From Devosia ginsengisoli (GTDB taxonomy: Bacteria > Pseudomonadota > Alphaproteobacteria > Rhizobiales > Devosiaceae): a stretch of 64,000 nt of DNA. The DNA is taken from the NCBI RefSeq assembly GCF_024707105.1, contig NZ_JANQAJ010000011.1, positions 941,488-1,005,487 on the forward strand, given 5' to 3'. The position numbers and the translations under genes were made by a program. Positions 323 to 41,642 of the stretch are shown here, piece by piece. The stretch's first letter is position 1. Each line of letters opens with the position of its first letter. Below the pieces are notes generated by a model, which was not told the origin of the DNA, made no database searches, and saw only the letters and a program-made list of their open reading frames with translations.

Positions 323-1603
323 ATGGCACGGCATCGGGTGGTCATCGTCGGCAGCGGGTTTGGCGGGCTGGCGGCAGCACAGGCGCTTGATGGCGCTGCA
401 GTTGATGTGACGCTGATCGACCGGCGCAACCACCACCTGTTCCAGCCCCTGCTCTATCAGGTGGCGACGGCTTCGCTCAGCACATCGGAAATCGCCTGGC
501 CCATTCGCCATATCCTGCGCAAGCGGGGCGAAGTCATGACCCTGCTGGCGACGGTGACCGGAGTGGATACGGCAAACAAGGCCGTCGTGCTGGAGGATGG
601 CACCAGGGTTCCCTATGACAGCCTGATCCTCGCGACCGGGGCGCGGCATGCCTATTTCGGGCATGACGACTGGGAGAAATTCGCGCCGGGCCTCAAGACG
701 CTGGAAGACGCGACGACCATTCGCCGCAAGCTGTTGCTGGCCTTCGAGGCCGCCGAGCGCGAGAGCGATCCAGACAAAAGGCGGGCGCTGCTGACTTTCG
801 TCATCATCGGGGCGGGGCCGACGGGGGTCGAACTGGCCGGGGCCATTGTCGAACTGGCGCGGGAGACGCTCAAGGGCGAATTCCGCAGCATCCTGCCCGG
901 CGAGGCACAGGTGGTGCTGATCGAGGGCGGGCAACGCGTGCTGGCCAATTTCAAGCCGGAACTATCGGATTATGCGCTCAAGGCGCTGCGCGAGCTGGGC
1001 GTGACGGTGGAGCTGGGCGAAGCCGTCAGCGCGGTGGATGACGCGGGCGTGGTCTATGGCGGCAAGAGGCTGGATGCGGCGACCGTCATCTGGGCCGCCG
1101 GCGTGCAGGCTTCGCCGGCGGCGAAATGGCTGGGAGTGGAGCCGGACCGGGCGGGCCGGGTGAAGGTCGAGGCGGACCTGACGGTACCTGGGCATCCCGA
1201 TATCTTCGTGGTCGGCGATACGGCGACGATCACCATGCCTGACGGCAAGCCGGTGCCCGGCGTGGGCGACGGGGCCAAGCAGGGCGGCAAGCATGCGGCA
1301 CGGGTGATCCGGGCGCGGCTGGCGGGCGGCACCGCGGCCAAACCGTTCCGCTACAAGCATGCGGGGGACCTGGCCACGATCGGCAAGCGGGCGGCGGTTA
1401 TCGATTTCGGCTGGATCCAGCTCAAGGGCTGGATCGCCTGGTGGGCCTGGGGACTGGCGCATATCTACTTCCTGATCGACACCAAGAACCGGCTGGCCGT
1501 GGCGCTGAGTTGGCTGTGGATCTATCTCAGCGGCCAGCGCAGCGCCCGGCTGATCACGCAGGGCGACGCAGAGAAGGCACCGGTCCGGGAGAGTGAGGCT
1601 TAG
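323..1603 (+). CDS. ndh: NAD(P)/FAD-dependent oxidoreductase, type II NADH dehydrogenase
   Basis: N-terminal GSGFGGLAAAQAL dinucleotide fold, IIGAGPTGVELAGA second Rossmann motif, VVGDTATI; C-terminal membrane-associated segment. Confidence 0.9.
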   Translation: MARHRVVIVGSGFGGLAAAQALDGAAVDVTLIDRRNHHLFQPLLYQVATASLSTSEIAWPIRHILRKRGEVMTLLATVTGVDTANKAVVLEDGTRVPYDSLILATGARHAYFGHDDWEKFAPGLKTLEDATTIRRKLLLAFEAAERESDPDKRRALLTFVIIGAGPTGVELAGAIVELARETLKGEFRSILPGEAQVVLIEGGQRVLANFKPELSDYALKALRELGVTVELGEAVSAVDDAGVVYGGKRLDAATVIWAAGVQASPAAKWLGVEPDRAGRVKVEADLTVPGHPDIFVVGDTATITMPDGKPVPGVGDGAKQGGKHAARVIRARLAGGTAAKPFRYKHAGDLATIGKRAAVIDFGWIQLKGWIAWWAWGLAHIYFLIDTKNRLAVALSWLWIYLSGQRSARLITQGDAEKAPVRESEA

Positions 1604-2559
1604 CGCTCCACGGCTTCCACCGCGGTGGTGGCCTTGTGCAGAGCGCGTTCACGGAGCCAGATGTAGAGGCCGCTGGCGATGACGATGGGGGCGCCCAGAT
1701 AGAGCCAGATATCGGGCGGCTGGTTGAAGATGATCCAGCTCGAGGCGGCCATGAAGATGATCTGGAGATAGGAGAACGGCGCCAGCACCGAGGCGGGGGC
1801 GAAGCCATGCGCCACGGTGATGAGCTGATGGCCGATGAAGCCGAAAATCCCCACGGTGAAGAAGGCGATCCAGACCGAAGGTTCTGACGGCCAGACCCAG
1901 AAGGGGATGGCGAGGGGCGCGAGGAGAACCGTGGCGAAGAAGCCGACATAGAATTGCTGGGTGGCGGCGGAGTCATGCGCCGCCATGCGGCGGGTCAGCA
2001 GGAAATAGAAGGCGGAGAAGACCGCGGCGGCGAGGCACAGCAGGGCCGCCGGATGGAAAGCCTCAGTGCCGGGGCGGACGATGACCAGGATGCCGATGAA
2101 GCCCACGCCAATGGCGGTCCAGCGCCGCCAGCCGACCTGTTCGCCCAGGAGCGGCACCGACAGCGCACAGAGAAAGAGCGGCATGGTGAAGGAGATGGCG
2201 CCGGTGACTGTCAGCGGCAGATAGCGCACGGCAAGGAAATTGCCGGTGGTGGCGCCGAGCAGCATGGCGGCGCGCAGGGCCTGCATCCTGAAGCTGGCAG
2301 TGCGGGCAAGGCCGGTGCCGTGCCTGGGCAGGTTGATGCCGAGCACCAGGACCAGATGCAGGGCATAGCGCAGGAAGACGATCTGCAGGACCGGAATGCC
2401 GCCGAGGGCCAGCCATTTGGCCGAGCTGTCTATGCAGGTGAACATGAGATAGGCGGCGAGCGCGAGCCCGATGCCCAACAGGCGACGGTCGCCGATGGGC
2501 GCTGTGATGGTCGACATGGCGGTTCCGAAGGGACCGCGCGGATGGGCGCGGCGTTGCAC
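1600..2559 (-). CDS. DMT-family (EamA) transporter
   Basis: About 10 hydrophobic segments, EamA repeat pattern; convergent with ndh. Confidence 0.85.
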   Translation of the reverse strand: MQRRAHPRGPFGTAMSTITAPIGDRRLLGIGLALAAYLMFTCIDSSAKWLALGGIPVLQIVFLRYALHLVLVLGINLPRHGTGLARTASFRMQALRAAMLLGATTGNFLAVRYLPLTVTGAISFTMPLFLCALSVPLLGEQVGWRRWTAIGVGFIGILVIVRPGTEAFHPAALLCLAAAVFSAFYFLLTRRMAAHDSAATQQFYVGFFATVLLAPLAIPFWVWPSEPSVWIAFFTVGIFGFIGHQLITVAHGFAPASVLAPFSYLQIIFMAASSWIIFNQPPDIWLYLGAPIVIASGLYIWLRERALHKATTAVEAVER

Positions 2560-2627
2560 TAGCGTTGGAAGATGCGGGGCGTCCTGTCAATGGAAACTTG
2601 TATGGAAGAAGGTGGCCATTCAGCAGC

Positions 2628-2714
2628 CCTCATGGTGAGCCTGTCGAACCACGAGGGCGTGGCACACCAGCCTCCACTCGCTCGACCTCGTGGTTCGACA
2701 AGCTCACCATGAGG
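2628..2714. repeat. Palindromic repeat family A, copy 1 (29-bp inverted arms CCTCATGGTGAGCYTGTCGAACCACGAGG)
   Basis: Arms 2628-2656 and 2686-2714 are reverse complements with 1 mismatch; same element at 35255, 58673 and variant at 24512. Confidence 0.9.
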
Positions 2715-2746
2715 TCTCGTAGGCCACGGCGAAGCCTGTTACTCCC

Positions 2747-5221
2747 CTAGAACGTATCGCGCAGGTTGCGGACTTTGAGCGACTGGACCAGTTCGGCCGG
2801 CGACGGGGTGGCGCCGTGGCGGGGGGTGAAGGTGAGTTCGGTCTGGCGGCCCGGCAGGAGCGTCACGGCATTGTCGGAGAAATAGCCGGGGATATCGACG
2901 CTGGCGGTGACGAACAAAGCCGGCTTGTCGCTGGTAAGGGTCAGCACGAAATTTCCATCCACATCGGACCAAGCGGCGCGGACCTTGGGCTCGACCAGTT
3001 CGTAGGCCTTGTAGGGCTTGGGGAAATAGTCGTTTTCGCCCAGGAGATTGCCCGAGGCATCGCGCCAGGAGAAGAACAGGAATTCGTCTTCGGCGAGATC
3101 GGCGGTCTGAAGCGTGGTGACGCTGATGGCGGCATCGGGACCGATGGCTGTATTGCCGGAGAAGACCTTGCGGTCGCCGCCGCCCACTTTGACGGCACGG
3201 ATTTCGAGGGCGACGGTTACCGGCTTGCCGGTATCGTTGATGCCGCGGAAAGTGATTTCGGCATTATCCGGGCTCGGCACGGCGACGATGTTGACAGGCA
3301 GGAAGAAGCGCTTGGCCATATATTGCAGCAGCTTCCACTGCCCGCCGTAATCGAGGCTGGACCAGGAGGCGACCGGCCAGATGTCGTTGATCTGCCAGAA
3401 CAGGGTGCCCATGCAGCGCGGCTTGGTGGAGCGCCAGTATTCGATGGCGGTCTTGATGGCGAGACCCTGCTGGATCTGGCTCAAAAACACCATCTGGTCG
3501 AAATCGCGCGGGAAGCGGAAATAGCGCGTCATGGTCTCGAGGATACGCGCATTGCCGCCATTGTTGCGCTGGTGGTTTTCCATGACCGGGGAGGACGGGT
3601 TGCGATCCTTTTCCTCGGCGAAACTCTCGATGACATTCATCGAGGTGAAGGACTGGAAGCCGAATTCGGAGGCGAAGCGCGGATTGACGCTGCGATAGGC
3701 GTCGAAGCTCTTGGCCGAATGCCAGACATCCCAATAATGGGTGTCACCCCGCGTATCGGCGTGCCAGCCGTCGGAGAAATCGAGATAGCCCATGGAGGGC
3801 GAGGACGGCCAGAAGCGGCGGGCCGGGTCTTCGTCCTCGACGATATTGCCGAGCATGGAATTGAGCCGGTCGTAATTGGCGACGTAGCGCTCGGGAGCTG
3901 CCTTGGTCTCGGGATACCAGCTCAGCGAGCCGATCACCTCGTTGTCGCCGCACCAGAGGGCAATGGAAGCATGGTGGCTGAGGCGGCGCACCTGCTGGGT
4001 GATTTCGGTGCGGACATTGTCGAGGAAGGGCCGGTCGGACGGGTAGCTCATGCAGGCGAACATGAAATCGTGCCAGAGCAGGATGCCGAGTTCGTCGCAG
4101 AGCTCGTAGAAATAGTCGGGCTCGTACTGCCCGCCGCCCCAGATGCGGAGCATGTTCATATTGGCGGCTTTGGCGCTTTCGAGCAGGTCGCGGATGACCG
4201 CTGGCGTGATGCGCGAGGGAATGGCGTCGGCGGGAATCCAGTTGGCGCCCATCATGGTGATGTCGCGGCCATTGATGCGGCATTTGAAAGTGTGGTCGAT
4301 CTCGTCGGGCTCGACGACCCATTCGAGCTTGCGCAGGCCGATCTGTCTTGTGGTCTTTTCGCCTTCGAGGTCGGTCACCAGTTCATAGAGCGGCTGGGCG
4401 CCCTGCCCCGCCGGCCACCACAGTTTGGGATCGTGGATGGTGACATTGTGGGTGAAGACATTCTCGCCCGGCTGCACCGAGACCTTGTCCGATATCACCT
4501 GGCCATCGATGGTGTGTTCAAGTTCCACTTCACCCTGGGCGAAGGCGAAAAGGCGAGTCTTTATCGACAGTTCGACCGACTTGTTGCCATGGGCCTGATC
4601 GACCTGGACGCTCTCCTGCCGAGCCAGACGCGACTTGCGCAGGCTCATCGTGCCATAGACGCCGATGGGCATGAGGCAGATGCCCCAGTCCCAACCGGCA
4701 TGGCAGGCCGCCTTGCGGATGAAGTTCATATGGATGCCCTTCAACCCATTGGTCATGTAATTGTAGGTGAAGGGGATCGGGAAAGGATGCGCGTCGGCGC
4801 GGGCCTTGGCGACGTCGGGGGCGATGGCGAATTCGATCCGCAAAGTGTTGTCGCCTTCGCGCACCCTGCCGGTTACGTCGATATCGTTGCGGAGGAAGCT
4901 GTTCTGCGTGTTGGCGACGACTTCACCATTGAGCAGGATGGTGGCGATGCAATCCACTTCGCTGAGGGTCAGCGTCAGGTAGCCGTCGATATCGGCGGCG
5001 CTGGCGGTAAAGCTGCGCTCGACCGACCAGGCGGTCTCGTTGACCCACATCACCGTCTTTTCGTTTTCGCCGAAATAGGGATCGGGGATGGCCTTGGCGG
5101 CCAGCAAGGCGGTGTGGACGTCGCCCGGCAGGGTGATCGGCGCCGTGAGGTCTGATGTGGGCGAGGACAGGGTAAAGTCACCCGCCAAAGAGATTTCAGA
5201 ATAAACCAAACCAGCCACCAT
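2747..5221 (-). CDS. Glycoside hydrolase family 2, beta-mannosidase
   Basis: GH2 motifs (MLRIWGGGQYEPDYFYELCDELGILLWHDFMFACMSYP, LWCGDNEV, RFASEFGFQSF); start at 5221 preceded by AAGGAG, so the 5305 ORF start is probably too long. Confidence 0.92.
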   Translation of the reverse strand: MVAGLVYSEISLAGDFTLSSPTSDLTAPITLPGDVHTALLAAKAIPDPYFGENEKTVMWVNETAWSVERSFTASAADIDGYLTLTLSEVDCIATILLNGEVVANTQNSFLRNDIDVTGRVREGDNTLRIEFAIAPDVAKARADAHPFPIPFTYNYMTNGLKGIHMNFIRKAACHAGWDWGICLMPIGVYGTMSLRKSRLARQESVQVDQAHGNKSVELSIKTRLFAFAQGEVELEHTIDGQVISDKVSVQPGENVFTHNVTIHDPKLWWPAGQGAQPLYELVTDLEGEKTTRQIGLRKLEWVVEPDEIDHTFKCRINGRDITMMGANWIPADAIPSRITPAVIRDLLESAKAANMNMLRIWGGGQYEPDYFYELCDELGILLWHDFMFACMSYPSDRPFLDNVRTEITQQVRRLSHHASIALWCGDNEVIGSLSWYPETKAAPERYVANYDRLNSMLGNIVEDEDPARRFWPSSPSMGYLDFSDGWHADTRGDTHYWDVWHSAKSFDAYRSVNPRFASEFGFQSFTSMNVIESFAEEKDRNPSSPVMENHQRNNGGNARILETMTRYFRFPRDFDQMVFLSQIQQGLAIKTAIEYWRSTKPRCMGTLFWQINDIWPVASWSSLDYGGQWKLLQYMAKRFFLPVNIVAVPSPDNAEITFRGINDTGKPVTVALEIRAVKVGGGDRKVFSGNTAIGPDAAISVTTLQTADLAEDEFLFFSWRDASGNLLGENDYFPKPYKAYELVEPKVRAAWSDVDGNFVLTLTSDKPALFVTASVDIPGYFSDNAVTLLPGRQTELTFTPRHGATPSPAELVQSLKVRNLRDTF

Positions 5222-36429: not shown

Positions 36430-37194
36430 TCAAGCCCGCCCGATATCGCCCTTCAGCCCCTTGCGCAGGAACAGCACGGCCAGCGCTTCCATGATGAGCT
36501 GGCCCGCCGAACTGCCCTCGAGTGCCGGCAGGTCGATTCCCAGCATTTGCGCCAGGCCCGCCAGCAGCATGAAGGCAGCGACGATATAGGTCTTGTAGCC
36601 ATTGAGAATATCCATGATCGTTCTCCAGAGTGTGATCGTATCGACCGGCGCCGTCGTGCCGGAAGTAGCCAGCGCCGCGGCTCGTACCGCGGCAACACGG
36701 TTGGTCCAGCCGCGGCCGAACGTGGCGAAAGTCGGCAAACGGTTGAGGAAAGCCAGCCGGCGGTCGCAGAGCGCGCCGATCAGCACACCCAGCCCCTTGC
36801 GCGCGGCATAGCTCTCCACCGCGCCCAGCGTCAGCGGCCCCACCTGTCCGTCGGCAGCCACGTCGAGTTCGGCCTGCAGCGTGCGGATGGCCCGGTCGGG
36901 ACCGGAATTGACGGCGAAGTCAAACAGAGCCAGGTCGAGCCCGGCGGGGAATTGCCCGGCCTGGCAGCGATCCCAATAGCTGGCGCGATAGATCTTCGCC
37001 GCTTCCGGGCGCTGCAATTCCATCACCGCGCTCTTGGGCAGGTTCCACCACGGCGACACCATGCGCCAGCGCGCCAGCGTCTTGTGGGTAATGCCCATAT
37101 TGGTAGCCCCGCCGGGATCGGACGGATGGTCGACATAGCCGCCCTCTTGGCGCAGCACCTCGTCGAGGCAAATATCGAACCGGCTTCTAGCCAT
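36430..37194 (-). CDS. GH108-type endolysin/secretion activator with C-terminal holin-like hydrophobic domain
   Basis: VLRQEGGYVDHPSDPGGATNMGITHKTL (GH108), PG-binding region, C-terminal NGYKTYIVAAFMLLAGLAQMLGIDL... Confidence 0.85.
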   Translation of the reverse strand: MARSRFDICLDEVLRQEGGYVDHPSDPGGATNMGITHKTLARWRMVSPWWNLPKSAVMELQRPEAAKIYRASYWDRCQAGQFPAGLDLALFDFAVNSGPDRAIRTLQAELDVAADGQVGPLTLGAVESYAARKGLGVLIGALCDRRLAFLNRLPTFATFGRGWTNRVAAVRAAALATSGTTAPVDTITLWRTIMDILNGYKTYIVAAFMLLAGLAQMLGIDLPALEGSSAGQLIMEALAVLFLRKGLKGDIGRA

Positions 37195-40100
37195 GGAATT
37201 CCCCCTGCGCCGCATGCCCCGCGCCCAGAACCGGGCTCAGTTGCTCAATCGTGAAATCGAACGCCGCCGGCAGCGCGCCGAAATCGGCCACCTGCGCGGC
37301 GCTCGCATAGCTAGCGGAAGGCATGCCGGTTTCCAGCACCCGCACGGCCGTCCCGCCATCGAGGATCGTGATCCGATAGCGCTCGGGCGCGTGTTCCAGC
37401 GGACTGTCGGCCACGCCCCAGCCATCGCCATCGGCCCGGCTGCGCCGCATCCAGGTCAGGCCAATATCGCCGGCATCATCGCGCAAAGCCCGCAGATGCA
37501 CCGGCGCCAGCGGCAGAGCCGGCCCCAACCCGGTCTCGGCCGTGAGGCTCGTGCCTTCGATATCGCTCGCCCCGGCATAGACACGGAAATCCCGCATCTC
37601 GCCCAACAGGCGCGGCTCCATCGGCAGCGTCACCGCCCGGGAGTCGAGCACCATCACGCGACTCCCGGCGGTTGCCGAACCGGCCTCCGTGCCTTCGAGT
37701 CCGCGCAACAACCGGCTCAGCCGATAACGCCCGGCCGAAACCAGTTCGGCTTCGGCAAAGCCGATCACCTCCCAACCGCCGGCCCCCTCGATGGCGAACC
37801 GGTTGCCGCCCGACAGCGCGGCCAGCGGTTCCACCGAGGCCAGGTGCCCCGCCAGCAGCGTCACCTCGATGACATTGCCCCGATCCCACACGCCTGTCGG
37901 TCCCGGCAGCAATGGTGTTTCGAGCGTCCCCAGCAGCCCGCGCCGCGGCAGGTTCACCGCCAGCGCCCCGGTCGCGTCATCGACCAGTTGCACGCTGCCC
38001 GGCCAGGGTTGCGCATAGGCCGCGGCCACCAGCCGCGACCGGCCAGGGTCGGCGGGCAACGGCGGCAGATGCGCCAGCGCCACCAGCGGCAGCGACCGCA
38101 CCGCCGGCCTCGTGCCCCCGGCCAACGGCCGATCGATCCCGGTCGCCACGGCGGTTCCCGAAGGCAGCGTCCGCGCCGTCACCCGCCGCATCAGCCCATC
38201 GCGGATTTCGCTGATCTCGAACGGCCCTTCGGCCAGCCCATCGATTTCCACCAGGTCCCCCGGCTCCAGCGCCAGCGCCGCAGGTGGCAGGTTGAAATCC
38301 AGCGTCTCGCGCTGCGCGCTGCGCCCATCGAGCATCCGCTCCGCGGCCAGCCGCGCGCCCGAGCCATCCAGCGTCATTGCCATGACCTCGCCCACCAGCG
38401 GCCCGGTCCCGTCGGTCAGTGCCGTCACCGTACCGCTCAGGTAGTCTCGCTCGCGGTCGAGATAGGTCAGCGCCAGCCGCCCCGGCGCCTCGGCCGGATC
38501 GCCGCGCTTCCGCGACAGCGTCGCGCCCTCGCTTTGCGCCAATTCTTCAGCGTCGAGCGCCATCGCCCCGCCTCGCCGCGCCAGGCCCAGATGCAGGCCA
38601 TCAATCCCGTTGCGCAGGCTCAGCCCCGTCGCATCAAGCAACGGCTCCAGCGCCTCGCGCGCGGTCGTCGCATGGCCCAGCACCAACCCGCCCACCAGCG
38701 GCGCAGCCGGTTCGGCGCTCAGTGCCACCCCATGGTCCGCGGCGACGGCCCTGGCCAATTCGTCGCTCGCCATGCCGCCCAGCCGCCCGGTCAGCCAGTG
38801 GCCGTTGCGATGGTTCGGGCCATCGGCCCACACATCACTCAGCGCCGGAAAGGCCGGATAGGGCCGCGCGTCCCAGGTCCAGTGATAGATGCGCTCGACA
38901 TCGACCATGCCGGCCGGATTATTGGCCGGATTGCGCCAGAAAGCCTGATGCGCCCGCAATACCTGCCGCTGGATCAGCGGATCTGGCGTCCCGGTCGAAA
39001 AATACGGCCGCCCACTCTCGGCACTCTTGGGGTCGCCGAAGATATTCGGCTGGTTCGCCCCCTTGTCGACAGCGCCGCAGCCCAACTCCGTGAACAGAAT
39101 TGGCTTCGAGCCCGGCACCCACGCCGTCGGGCTGCCATTGCGCACCCCACCCGGCCGGTTGTGGTGTGCCTGACTCCACCAGTTGCGAATATCCTTGTAG
39201 CGCCACACCCACGGCTCGCCATGCGCCCCATCAGTGATCGGCGTCCGCACCTGCGCCCGCCGGTCGGCATCACTGGCATAGAACCAGTCATAGCCCTCGC
39301 CGCCGGCAATATTGCCCATGAGATAGTCAAGGTCATGCGTAGACGCCGCCAGAGTCGCATCCGCATGGCCCTGCCCGTCCCGCCAATCGGCCAGCGGCAT
39401 ATAATTGTCGATGCCGACAGCATCGATATTGGCTGAGGCCCAGAGCGGATCGAGGTGAAAGAATTTTTCGCCCCCGCCCGGCTGGTAGCCCGAATATTCG
39501 CTCCAATCCGCCGCATAGGTCAGCTTCGTCCCCGCGCCCACCACGCCCCGCACATCGGCCGCCAGCGTCACCAGCGCCGAAACGAAGGGAAAGCTGTTGC
39601 CCGCCCCGCGCACCGTGGTCAGGCCAACCATTTCCGAGCCGATGATCAGCGTATCGACGCCACCCGCCGCCACGGCCAGTCCGGCATAATGCAGCACCAT
39701 CTGCCGATAGGCCGCCGCAAATGTCGCCACCTGCGTCGCCGCTGCCGCCGATTTGTCCGGCGATCCCGCCCGCCCCGGCGCCGGGTGACAGGTGATCCGC
39801 CCGCGCCAGGGATAGGCCGCCTGCCCCGTCCCGCCATAGGGATTTGGCAGGCCGTTGCCCGCCGGCACATCCATCATCACCATGGGGTAGAGCGTCACGC
39901 GCAGTCCGCGTGCCTTGAGGTCGGCAATCGCCGCCCGCACCGATGCGTCCGAAGGCGTGCCGCCATAGGCCGCCCCGCCATCATGGCTCGATACGACAGG
40001 CACGTCGCCGCGCCCCAGCCCGGCCACGCTCCAGCTCGTGCCCTGCACGGTCCTGTCGGCCGCCTCGACACGCGGCCCGATGGCGCAATTGCCGCAGCGC

Positions 40101-41134
40101 AGGTCATTGCCGAACCAGGTCACGACAAGCGCCACATGCTCGAGATTAGGGCACAGCGCGACCAGTTCGTCGATCGAGGCCGTCCAGTCGCTGACATTGG
40201 CGGCGAGATGCGTATTCTCGCCCACCGTCTGCCCCGGCCCGGCAATGCGCACGCGCGGCACCGGATCATAGCCGAATTCCGTCGCCCCAGGGATGATGGT
40301 CACCGCGCGAATATCGGGTTCCAGGTCCCCCACCACCCGGCACAATTCCACCGACAGTTGCGGAATGCGGTTGCCAAAGCGGTTGAGCGGCAATTGCTCG
40401 ACCACGAGATAGCACAGCCCCCGATAGGCTGGCGCCACGCCCTGCGTGGCCTCGATCAGCCCGTCGGGCAGTTGGTCTTCGGTGCCGCGATAAAAACGCA
40501 GCGTCAGCCCCGCCGTATCGAGCAGTTGCCCATCGGTCCAGATGCGCCCCAGCCGGTGCACCTCGCCCTCGCAGAAAGCCACGGCAAAGCTCGCACCGAC
40601 AACGTCTTCCTGTTGCTGCTCCTGCCCAAAGCCCTTGGCCCCGGCATTTTCCGGCGAGAGCAATTCCAGCTCGTCGCACCAGGCTGCCGCGAATTGCGGC
40701 CCGCGGAACCGGTCCGGGTCCGATGCCGACATCACCATGGCCTCGACCCCATTGGGCCAGATCAGCCGCTGCCCTCTCAGCGTCGGCCGCTCGAGTTCGG
40801 AGCACACATTCAATATGCCGCTCTCCCCGCGCACCATGATGGAAATGGCTTCGGCCATGGTTTCGCCCACCAAAGCGATCGGCCCGATTTCCTGCGCCGC
40901 CAGGCTCCGTACCCATTCAGCCCCGGCCCGTGTCTTGCCCGAGCCGCGACCGCCCAGCAGCAGCCAGGTGGTCCAGTCGCCCTTCGGCGGCCGCTGCTTG
41001 TCCAGCGCCCAGGAATTCCAGTCGAAATACACGGCCTCCGCGTCGTCTACGCGGTCGGCAAACTCTTGCGGGGTCAGCTTCGGCTGATCGACGAACAGGG
41101 GGCCATCCGGTTCAGCGATTGCGATATTGCTCAA
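37187..41134 (-). CDS. In-frame chimera: phage/GTA large terminase N-terminus fused to GTA TIM-barrel/phage-tail host-specificity protein (gp15/J-like)
   Basis: aa 1-155: WLLLGGRGSGKTRAGAEWVRSLA...RGPQFAAAWCDEL (terminase Walker A and B region); from about aa 160: SFAVAFCEGEVHRLGRIWTDGQ...GVDTLIIGSEMVGL...IDAVGIDNYMPLADWRDG...PILFTELGCGAVDKGANQPNIF (GTA_TIM) and tail domains; single open frame. Confidence 0.88.
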   Translation of the reverse strand: MSNIAIAEPDGPLFVDQPKLTPQEFADRVDDAEAVYFDWNSWALDKQRPPKGDWTTWLLLGGRGSGKTRAGAEWVRSLAAQEIGPIALVGETMAEAISIMVRGESGILNVCSELERPTLRGQRLIWPNGVEAMVMSASDPDRFRGPQFAAAWCDELELLSPENAGAKGFGQEQQQEDVVGASFAVAFCEGEVHRLGRIWTDGQLLDTAGLTLRFYRGTEDQLPDGLIEATQGVAPAYRGLCYLVVEQLPLNRFGNRIPQLSVELCRVVGDLEPDIRAVTIIPGATEFGYDPVPRVRIAGPGQTVGENTHLAANVSDWTASIDELVALCPNLEHVALVVTWFGNDLRCGNCAIGPRVEAADRTVQGTSWSVAGLGRGDVPVVSSHDGGAAYGGTPSDASVRAAIADLKARGLRVTLYPMVMMDVPAGNGLPNPYGGTGQAAYPWRGRITCHPAPGRAGSPDKSAAAATQVATFAAAYRQMVLHYAGLAVAAGGVDTLIIGSEMVGLTTVRGAGNSFPFVSALVTLAADVRGVVGAGTKLTYAADWSEYSGYQPGGGEKFFHLDPLWASANIDAVGIDNYMPLADWRDGQGHADATLAASTHDLDYLMGNIAGGEGYDWFYASDADRRAQVRTPITDGAHGEPWVWRYKDIRNWWSQAHHNRPGGVRNGSPTAWVPGSKPILFTELGCGAVDKGANQPNIFGDPKSAESGRPYFSTGTPDPLIQRQVLRAHQAFWRNPANNPAGMVDVERIYHWTWDARPYPAFPALSDVWADGPNHRNGHWLTGRLGGMASDELARAVAADHGVALSAEPAAPLVGGLVLGHATTAREALEPLLDATGLSLRNGIDGLHLGLARRGGAMALDAEELAQSEGATLSRKRGDPAEAPGRLALTYLDRERDYLSGTVTALTDGTGPLVGEVMAMTLDGSGARLAAERMLDGRSAQRETLDFNLPPAALALEPGDLVEIDGLAEGPFEISEIRDGLMRRVTARTLPSGTAVATGIDRPLAGGTRPAVRSLPLVALAHLPPLPADPGRSRLVAAAYAQPWPGSVQLVDDATGALAVNLPRRGLLGTLETPLLPGPTGVWDRGNVIEVTLLAGHLASVEPLAALSGGNRFAIEGAGGWEVIGFAEAELVSAGRYRLSRLLRGLEGTEAGSATAGSRVMVLDSRAVTLPMEPRLLGEMRDFRVYAGASDIEGTSLTAETGLGPALPLAPVHLRALRDDAGDIGLTWMRRSRADGDGWGVADSPLEHAPERYRITILDGGTAVRVLETGMPSASYASAAQVADFGALPAAFDFTIEQLSPVLGAGHAAQGEFHG

Positions 41135-41540
41135 TGCGCTTGGCCAGTTTGTTGCGCAGGTCGGTCATGTCCTTCCTGGTCGGCGGCTCCACATTGCGTT
41201 GCGCCGCGCCCATCTCGATCAGCTTGTCGAGCGTCTTGACCTGTATGCTCAGCACATTGGCCTGCTTGTCGATCGGTTCGTCCACCGCCGCCTCCAGTCG
41301 CCTTATCTGTTTGTCGAGAACCTTGAGCATCCGCGCCACCAGGTCTTCATGGCGCACCACGCGTGCCCTTATGCTGGGCCACCCTTCGACCTCCCGCCGA
41401 TAGCGCAGTTGCGCCAGCGTGATGCCGTGGCGCTTGCAGATGACGGCGGGCAGGAAGTGGCGACCCTCATATTCCGCCCGGATGATATCCCAGCGGATCG
41501 GAGCCCCCGGCTCCGTCTCGTGACCCAATTTCGTGACCAT
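41112..41540 (-). CDS. Small terminase-like DNA packaging protein
   Basis: HTH-like YEGRHFLPAVICKRHGITLAQLRYRREVEGW; directly upstream of and overlapping the terminase-derived ORF. Confidence 0.6.
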   Translation of the reverse strand: MVTKLGHETEPGAPIRWDIIRAEYEGRHFLPAVICKRHGITLAQLRYRREVEGWPSIRARVVRHEDLVARMLKVLDKQIRRLEAAVDEPIDKQANVLSIQVKTLDKLIEMGAAQRNVEPPTRKDMTDLRNKLAKRIEQYRNR

Positions 41541-41587
41541 GCCTGAACTATAGCCGATCACCGTGACGCGGGGATAAGATGGATAAG

Positions 41588-41615
41588 AAAAAGCCCCGCT
41601 GCAGCGCAACGGGGC
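41588..41615 (-). terminator. Rho-independent terminator downstream of DUF2147 gene
   Basis: On minus strand GCCCCGTTGC-GCT-GCAGCGGGGC followed by TTTTT. Confidence 0.75.
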
Positions 41616-41642
41616 CTCCAATCTTCAGCATTCCGCCGAAAA

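Follow-up and report, generated by a model that had tools for sequence, protein, structure and literature searches.

Recurrent in-frame terL::gp15 deletions accompany loss of an RcGTA-type gene transfer agent in Devosia

In Devosia ginsengisoli, a deletion inside a gene transfer agent (GTA) cluster has joined the 5' part of terL, the large terminase gene, in frame to gp15, which encodes the host-specificity/tail hub protein. GTA losses that break TerL at this point recur across the genus, in about eight (at least seven) separate lineages. The chimeric open reading frame (ORF) lies in the window, the 64,000-nucleotide stretch of DNA analyzed here, which comes from the genome designated G000. 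The GTA-loss deletion and the recurrence of its junction are real; the chimera is probably what a recent loss of an RcGTA-type cluster left behind, through one deletion of ~12.7 kb, a product without motor or tail function whose frame is open because the event is young.

The locus, the only one of its kind in the whole G000 genome, is a single uninterrupted frame of 1,315 codons, as a first-pass annotation of the sequence had described (Table 1). That annotation had also read residues 1 to 155 as a large terminase, naming a profile search as the check, and the protein from about residue 160 onward as gp15-like. Profile searches bear out both assignments. Pfam places Terminase_6N at residues 59 to 156 (E value of 1.7e-12), followed by GTA_TIM at 476 to 763 (1e-140), Phage-tail_3 at 822 to 977, and Rcc01698_C at 1068 to 1160, and so the gp15 domain set of TIM barrel, Phage-tail_3, and Rcc01698_C is all present. 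PHROG 4271, a tail protein family, matches from residue 166 onward and enters its profile at position 95; this start, together with comparison to gp15 of the G010 locus (L110), indicates that ~84 residues of the gp15 N terminus are missing. On the terminase side, both Walker A and Walker B of the N-terminal ATPase are present, and the TerL portion ends directly after the catalytic Walker B glutamate. The remaining ATPase core and the C-terminal nuclease are missing, with the switch to gp15 falling at residue 157. An AlphaFold model of residues 1 to 330, built on a shallow and slightly misaligned alignment and therefore of little weight, is poor, with a mean pLDDT of 54.5 and values of <50 at residues 140 to 176. 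The further suggestion of a possible ATPase-tail fiber chimera is not supported as regards a working protein: it lacks the later ATPase motifs and the nuclease, the junction is modeled with pLDDT of <50, and other losses in the genus keep different N-terminal partners. By itself, the chimeric protein most likely acts neither as a motor nor as a tail component.

Table 1. Features of the chimeric locus (coordinates in the window)
Feature	Coordinates	Strand	Description and evidence
terL::gp15 chimeric ORF, type A fusion	37187..41134	-	1,315 aa; TTG start; no internal stop
TerL residues 1-156, Walker A GGRGSGKTRAGAEW to Walker B AAWCDE	40667..41134	-	Terminase_6N 59-156; blastn
Fusion junction E156/L157 (GAG/CTG)	40664..40669	-	Break between 40667 and 40666; comparison with G010 and Devosia sp. 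YR412
GTA gp15 (host-specificity/tail hub protein), ~residue 85 to natural C terminus	37190..40666	-	Pfam; phrog_4271; blastn
GH108/PG_binding_3 lysozyme, C-terminal hydrophobic segment	36430..37215	-	Start overlaps gp15 stop
Small gene overlapping terL start	41112..41621	-	ORF; GTA small-terminase candidate by position only

Comparison with the nearest relatives in the genome set, G010 and G008, both of which have an intact RcGTA-type cluster, reveals how the frame was assembled. Against each of them, blastn splits the chimera into two blocks, nucleotides 1 to 465 matching terL and nucleotides 463 to 3948 matching gp15. The TerL half is 91% (G010) or 93% (G008) identical to intact terL and the gp15 half 88% identical to G010 gp15 at the nucleotide level; taken together, the intact terL and gp15 ends match the two halves at 84 to 93%. 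The break points lie 12,720 bp apart in G010 and 11,636 bp apart in G008. In G010, whose cluster genes were named from sequence and order, the interval holds portal, capsid, connector, and tail genes, an NlpC/P60-type peptidase gene, and others. The first-pass proposal that terL and gp15 stand at opposite cluster ends and were joined by one in-frame deletion is supported: with an intact 12.7-kb interval in the nearest relative, this is a simple deletion in an RcGTA-type cluster. Such clusters carry TerL, portal, protease, capsid, adaptor, tape-measure, and tail genes in a fixed order, of which the window retains just the TerL N terminus and gp15, along with the lysozyme gene; the small gene that precedes terL, in an order identical in G010, has no Pfam match above the cutoff and no PHROG match. 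A search for an HK97 capsid found no match anywhere in the G000 genome, and two portal matches both lie elsewhere, one interrupted by a stop. The event was a deletion and not a rearrangement that moved the genes to another place. The GTA is collapsed, as had been suspected, and with no phage capsid gene left, G000 would no longer be able to make GTA particles. With G010 as the proxy, the parents of the junction read GAC GAG/GTT in TerL and CGG GAG/CTG in gp15, the window reads GAC GAG CTG, and only GAG is common to both parents. The intact cluster of G010 also carries two extra ORFs, of 136 and 216 amino acids, between portal and capsid (L110:4822-5879).

A search for the same domain order elsewhere, which the first-pass annotation had recommended, uncovered TerL::gp15 fusions in eight further Devosia genomes, in a sample with one genome per species. 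Devosia sp. YR412 (L031, from G094) shares the G000 junction to the base (type A). In seven others (type B; G030, G026, G061, G083, G076, G063, and G011), that TerL codon runs into gp15 at query residue 683, which yields WCDE[LI]GCGAVDKG, with LGSG in G026. TerL codon 156 is therefore a break point in nine genomes, while the gp15 end points of the two types differ by 526 residues. All type A and type B frames are open, although G083 and G063 are cut by contig ends; fused frames carry GGRGSGKT and WCDE, with G083 ending at the contig end before Walker A. The type B junction was absent from 61 other Devosiaceae genomes and from ~370 other Hyphomicrobiales genomes. The type A pattern was sought in the genus Devosia and in IMG/VR, and neither pattern occurs in IMG/VR. 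Intact Devosia genomes contain no template copy of either junction. In open-access papers, we found no description of recurrent TerL::gp15 fusions. Separately, two genomes carry a second, distant gp15 homolog (46 to 48% identity) alongside the GTA copy (G021:C3:692574-696206 and G091:C1:2741967-2745614).

In both the rpoB tree and a tree of the gp15 C-terminal portion (gp15-C), fused and intact genomes are interspersed. On gp15-C, type B requires six changes, and the two types together require eight. Forcing type B into one clade on gp15-C costs 1,127 log-likelihood units (approximately unbiased [AU] test, p = 3e-4), and a single origin on rpoB is rejected for type B (p = 1e-48) and for type A (p = 0.003). 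The sequences of G011 on either side of the junction cluster with those of intact G005, and G000 clusters with G010 and G008. A shared event is possible for G026 and G061, although TerL-N disfavors it (p = 0.04); the TerL-N tree was weighted less, being short and showing exchange between species. Neither the trees of the two halves nor that of rpoB are compatible with one origin, and some eight separate losses have to be assumed. The left end of the GTA cluster itself seems to have been exchanged between species, as seen for the terL N terminus of G000, G010, and G008 versus G075, where the terL-N tree conflicts with rpoB and gp15.

These fusions belong to a wider pattern of loss. Pseudogenization and complete loss of GTAs are known in several lineages and have been linked to cheaters (PMC10883770). 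Eighteen Devosia genomes are GTA defective, which requires at least 13 changes on the rpoB tree. Other in-frame chimeras join gp15 to prohead protease in G095 (L157:3772-6675) and G009 (L118:4837-5385), to capsid in G029 (L116:7492-9465), and to a TerS-like protein in G078 (L152:4168-5646); the protease part in G095 and the TerS part in G078 were assigned by eye from similarity, with no HMM match. In G006 (L119:2739-4547), gp15 is gone, and a phage capsid is fused in frame to GH108 lysozyme in a frame of 603 amino acids. G001 and G068 have out-of-frame losses. A truly decayed copy, a gp15 with several stops, occurs at L266 in the small, 2.0-Mb genome G097.

What lies downstream may matter for the frame. 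In most genomes an ATG stands 8 or 29 nucleotides before the gp15 end, and the gp15 stop overlaps the GH108 lysozyme start; the window has in-frame ATGs at both -29 and -8. This GTA-associated lysozyme gene is retained in most GTA-defective Devosia. In 15 of the collapsed genomes inspected, the lysozyme is full-length or nearly so as a match. G061 has a frameshifted copy, G068 and G034 have partial ones, and G097 has a degenerate one; in G015 and G070 the gene is missing or has just a distant match. Its constraint is alike in collapsed lineages and intact sisters, with ratios of nonsynonymous to synonymous changes (N/S) of 0.83 and 0.74, respectively.

The first-pass annotation had found an open frame of ~4 kb unexpected for decaying DNA. 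The frame is indeed open, but the surprise disappears if the deletion is recent. Relaxed selection on the fused halves was not seen: summed over branches, with one sister used twice, gp15-C has 701/754 nonsynonymous/synonymous changes (0.93) on fused branches and 834/859 (0.97) in intact sisters. Halves that evolve like those of intact sisters must be either freshly joined or still constrained. Sister pairs such as G009/G011 and G006/G095 carry different losses, which fits frequent, recent losses near the tips. By our own counting of events that are not fully independent, 13 of 16 are in frame overall, and 5 of 8 are in frame without the recurrent types (p = 0.09).

We propose, then, that one deletion of ~12.7 kb, starting immediately behind the TerL Walker B codon, extended to gp15 codon ~84, which would have left the strain unable to make GTA particles, and that the frame is open because the event is young. 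In-frame deletions may be favored because they would preserve translation to the gp15 stop that overlaps the conserved lysozyme start; this explanation of the in-frame bias is reasonable but weak, and as a sign of lysozyme coupling the bias is no more than suggestive. The intact sisters, the lack of a capsid, the many independent losses, the other in-frame chimeras, the kept lysozyme, and the gp15-C N/S ratios all agree with a loss scar. Against it stands an exact recurrence that random deletion would not be expected to produce: nine genomes break at one TerL codon, and seven of them (type B) also at one gp15 codon. The short microhomology in proxy relatives, with its many equal alternatives, counts against it too. 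The in-frame excess outside the recurrent types is also slight, the lysozyme of G001 survives although the scar before it is out of frame, and that of the fused G061 is frameshifted.

Exact recurrence might instead reflect a selected working protein, in which TerL up to the Walker B glutamate, followed by gp15, is convergently kept, for example, as a decoy or dominant-negative protein against phages or GTAs. Two exact junction types with the common TerL end E156 in ~eight lineages, frames that are all open, the retention of Walker A and Walker B, and unrelaxed N/S ratios speak for such a protein. We nevertheless consider it unlikely. Most other GTA losses either lack TerL-N in the fusion or keep TerL whole, so the fusion product is not required; types A and B differ widely in how much gp15 they keep; and the structure prediction for the junction region is of very low confidence. 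Sister species do not clearly share any fused clade, G026/G061 being the sole candidate.

A mutational hotspot or programmed excision, in which a specific DNA process links TerL codon 156 with either of two gp15 codons and GTA-minus cells recur in Devosia populations, seems to us somewhat less likely still. The break sites mostly read TGG-N6-GAR, the recurrence is exact to the base in separate lineages whose flanks are vertical up to the junction, the fused alleles look young, and type B is restricted to Devosia. However, the three sites have no conserved core: the identical core at both ends that a site-specific recombination product would carry is missing, and the sites differ within and between lineages. 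Nor do the junction sites have excess synonymous conservation at the DNA level, and hairpins at the break points are not unusual, being average or weaker than average. Microhomology as the sole cause was rejected as well. In proxy relatives, which are sister species rather than true ancestors and whose microhomology may be shorter than the ancestral one, exact matches at the junctions span 2 to 6 bp, and in-frame alternatives at least as long number from 1,642 to over 100,000. Averaged over 39 intact genomes, the type B pair ranks ~1331st (9-nucleotide window) or 2513th (18-nucleotide window) of ~510,000 in-frame pairs, and type A ranks lower in both windows; in-frame repeats of ≥10 bp number ~20 per genome. 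With so few shared bases and thousands of equal in-frame alternatives, microhomology leaves the exact recurrence unaccounted for.

Alternatively, one old deletion allele per type could have spread by homologous recombination between Devosia species and later been homogenized with local intact alleles. Known GTA capsids mostly hold less than half of their own cluster (PMC6209664), and a deleted allele of ~3 to 4 kb could fit GTA particles where an intact cluster could not; identical junctions are confined to one genus, and terL-N shows exchange between species. We rate this spread a slim prospect, however, as a single type B clade is rejected on gp15-C and disfavored on the 150 bp flanking the junction (gp15 side, p = 0.028; TerL side, p = 0.006), type B genomes are no more alike at the junction than away from it, and G000 and G011 match their own intact sisters to within a few bases of it. 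Lateral transfer of the junction is disfavored by the same AU tests and unraised identity. Misassembly or a chimeric contig is very unlikely and can be dismissed, given the base-identical junction in the independently assembled YR412, the type B junction in the single-contig genomes G026 and G076, the position of the window junction well inside a 1.04-Mb contig, and the lack of a capsid gene elsewhere.

Our preferred reading, the scar of a recent loss, leaves a broader proposition that we regard as doubtful: that GTA loss in Devosia follows a sequence-specific or strongly selected route, in which TerL codon 156 is repeatedly joined to one of two gp15 codons. If true, such a recurrent, defined deletion could be a programmed off-switch for GTA production. 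In theory, nonproducers invade, and GTA producers cannot resist them (PMC6209664); how a costly production survives when nonproducers ought to prevail is an open question (PMC6209664, PMC10883770). A repeated, defined loss allele is a clean marker, and one PCR separates producers from nonproducers. Within Devosia, it could then be measured how frequent, how old, and how fit natural GTA-minus cells are. A specific deletion, if that is what this is, would amount to a new DNA process or to a strong example of convergent selection.

Three known systems offer comparisons. The RcGTA-type head-tail cluster of Rhodobacter capsulatus and its alphaproteobacterial homologs resembles the Devosia locus in its TerL and gp15 sequences and in the gene order of the intact sisters, whereas the fusion lacks portal to gp14, cuts TerL after Walker B, and has lost the gp15 N terminus. 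Natural deletions between short direct repeats are likewise clean two-point deletions with a few shared bases, but in Devosia those bases are too few, and the alternatives too many, for one codon to be hit in ~eight lineages. Finally, pseudogenized GTA clusters in possible cheater lineages (Kogay et al. 2024, PMC10883770) have also lost GTA production while relatives keep it; what sets Devosia apart is an identical in-frame TerL::gp15 junction, with its frame still open, in several separate lineages.
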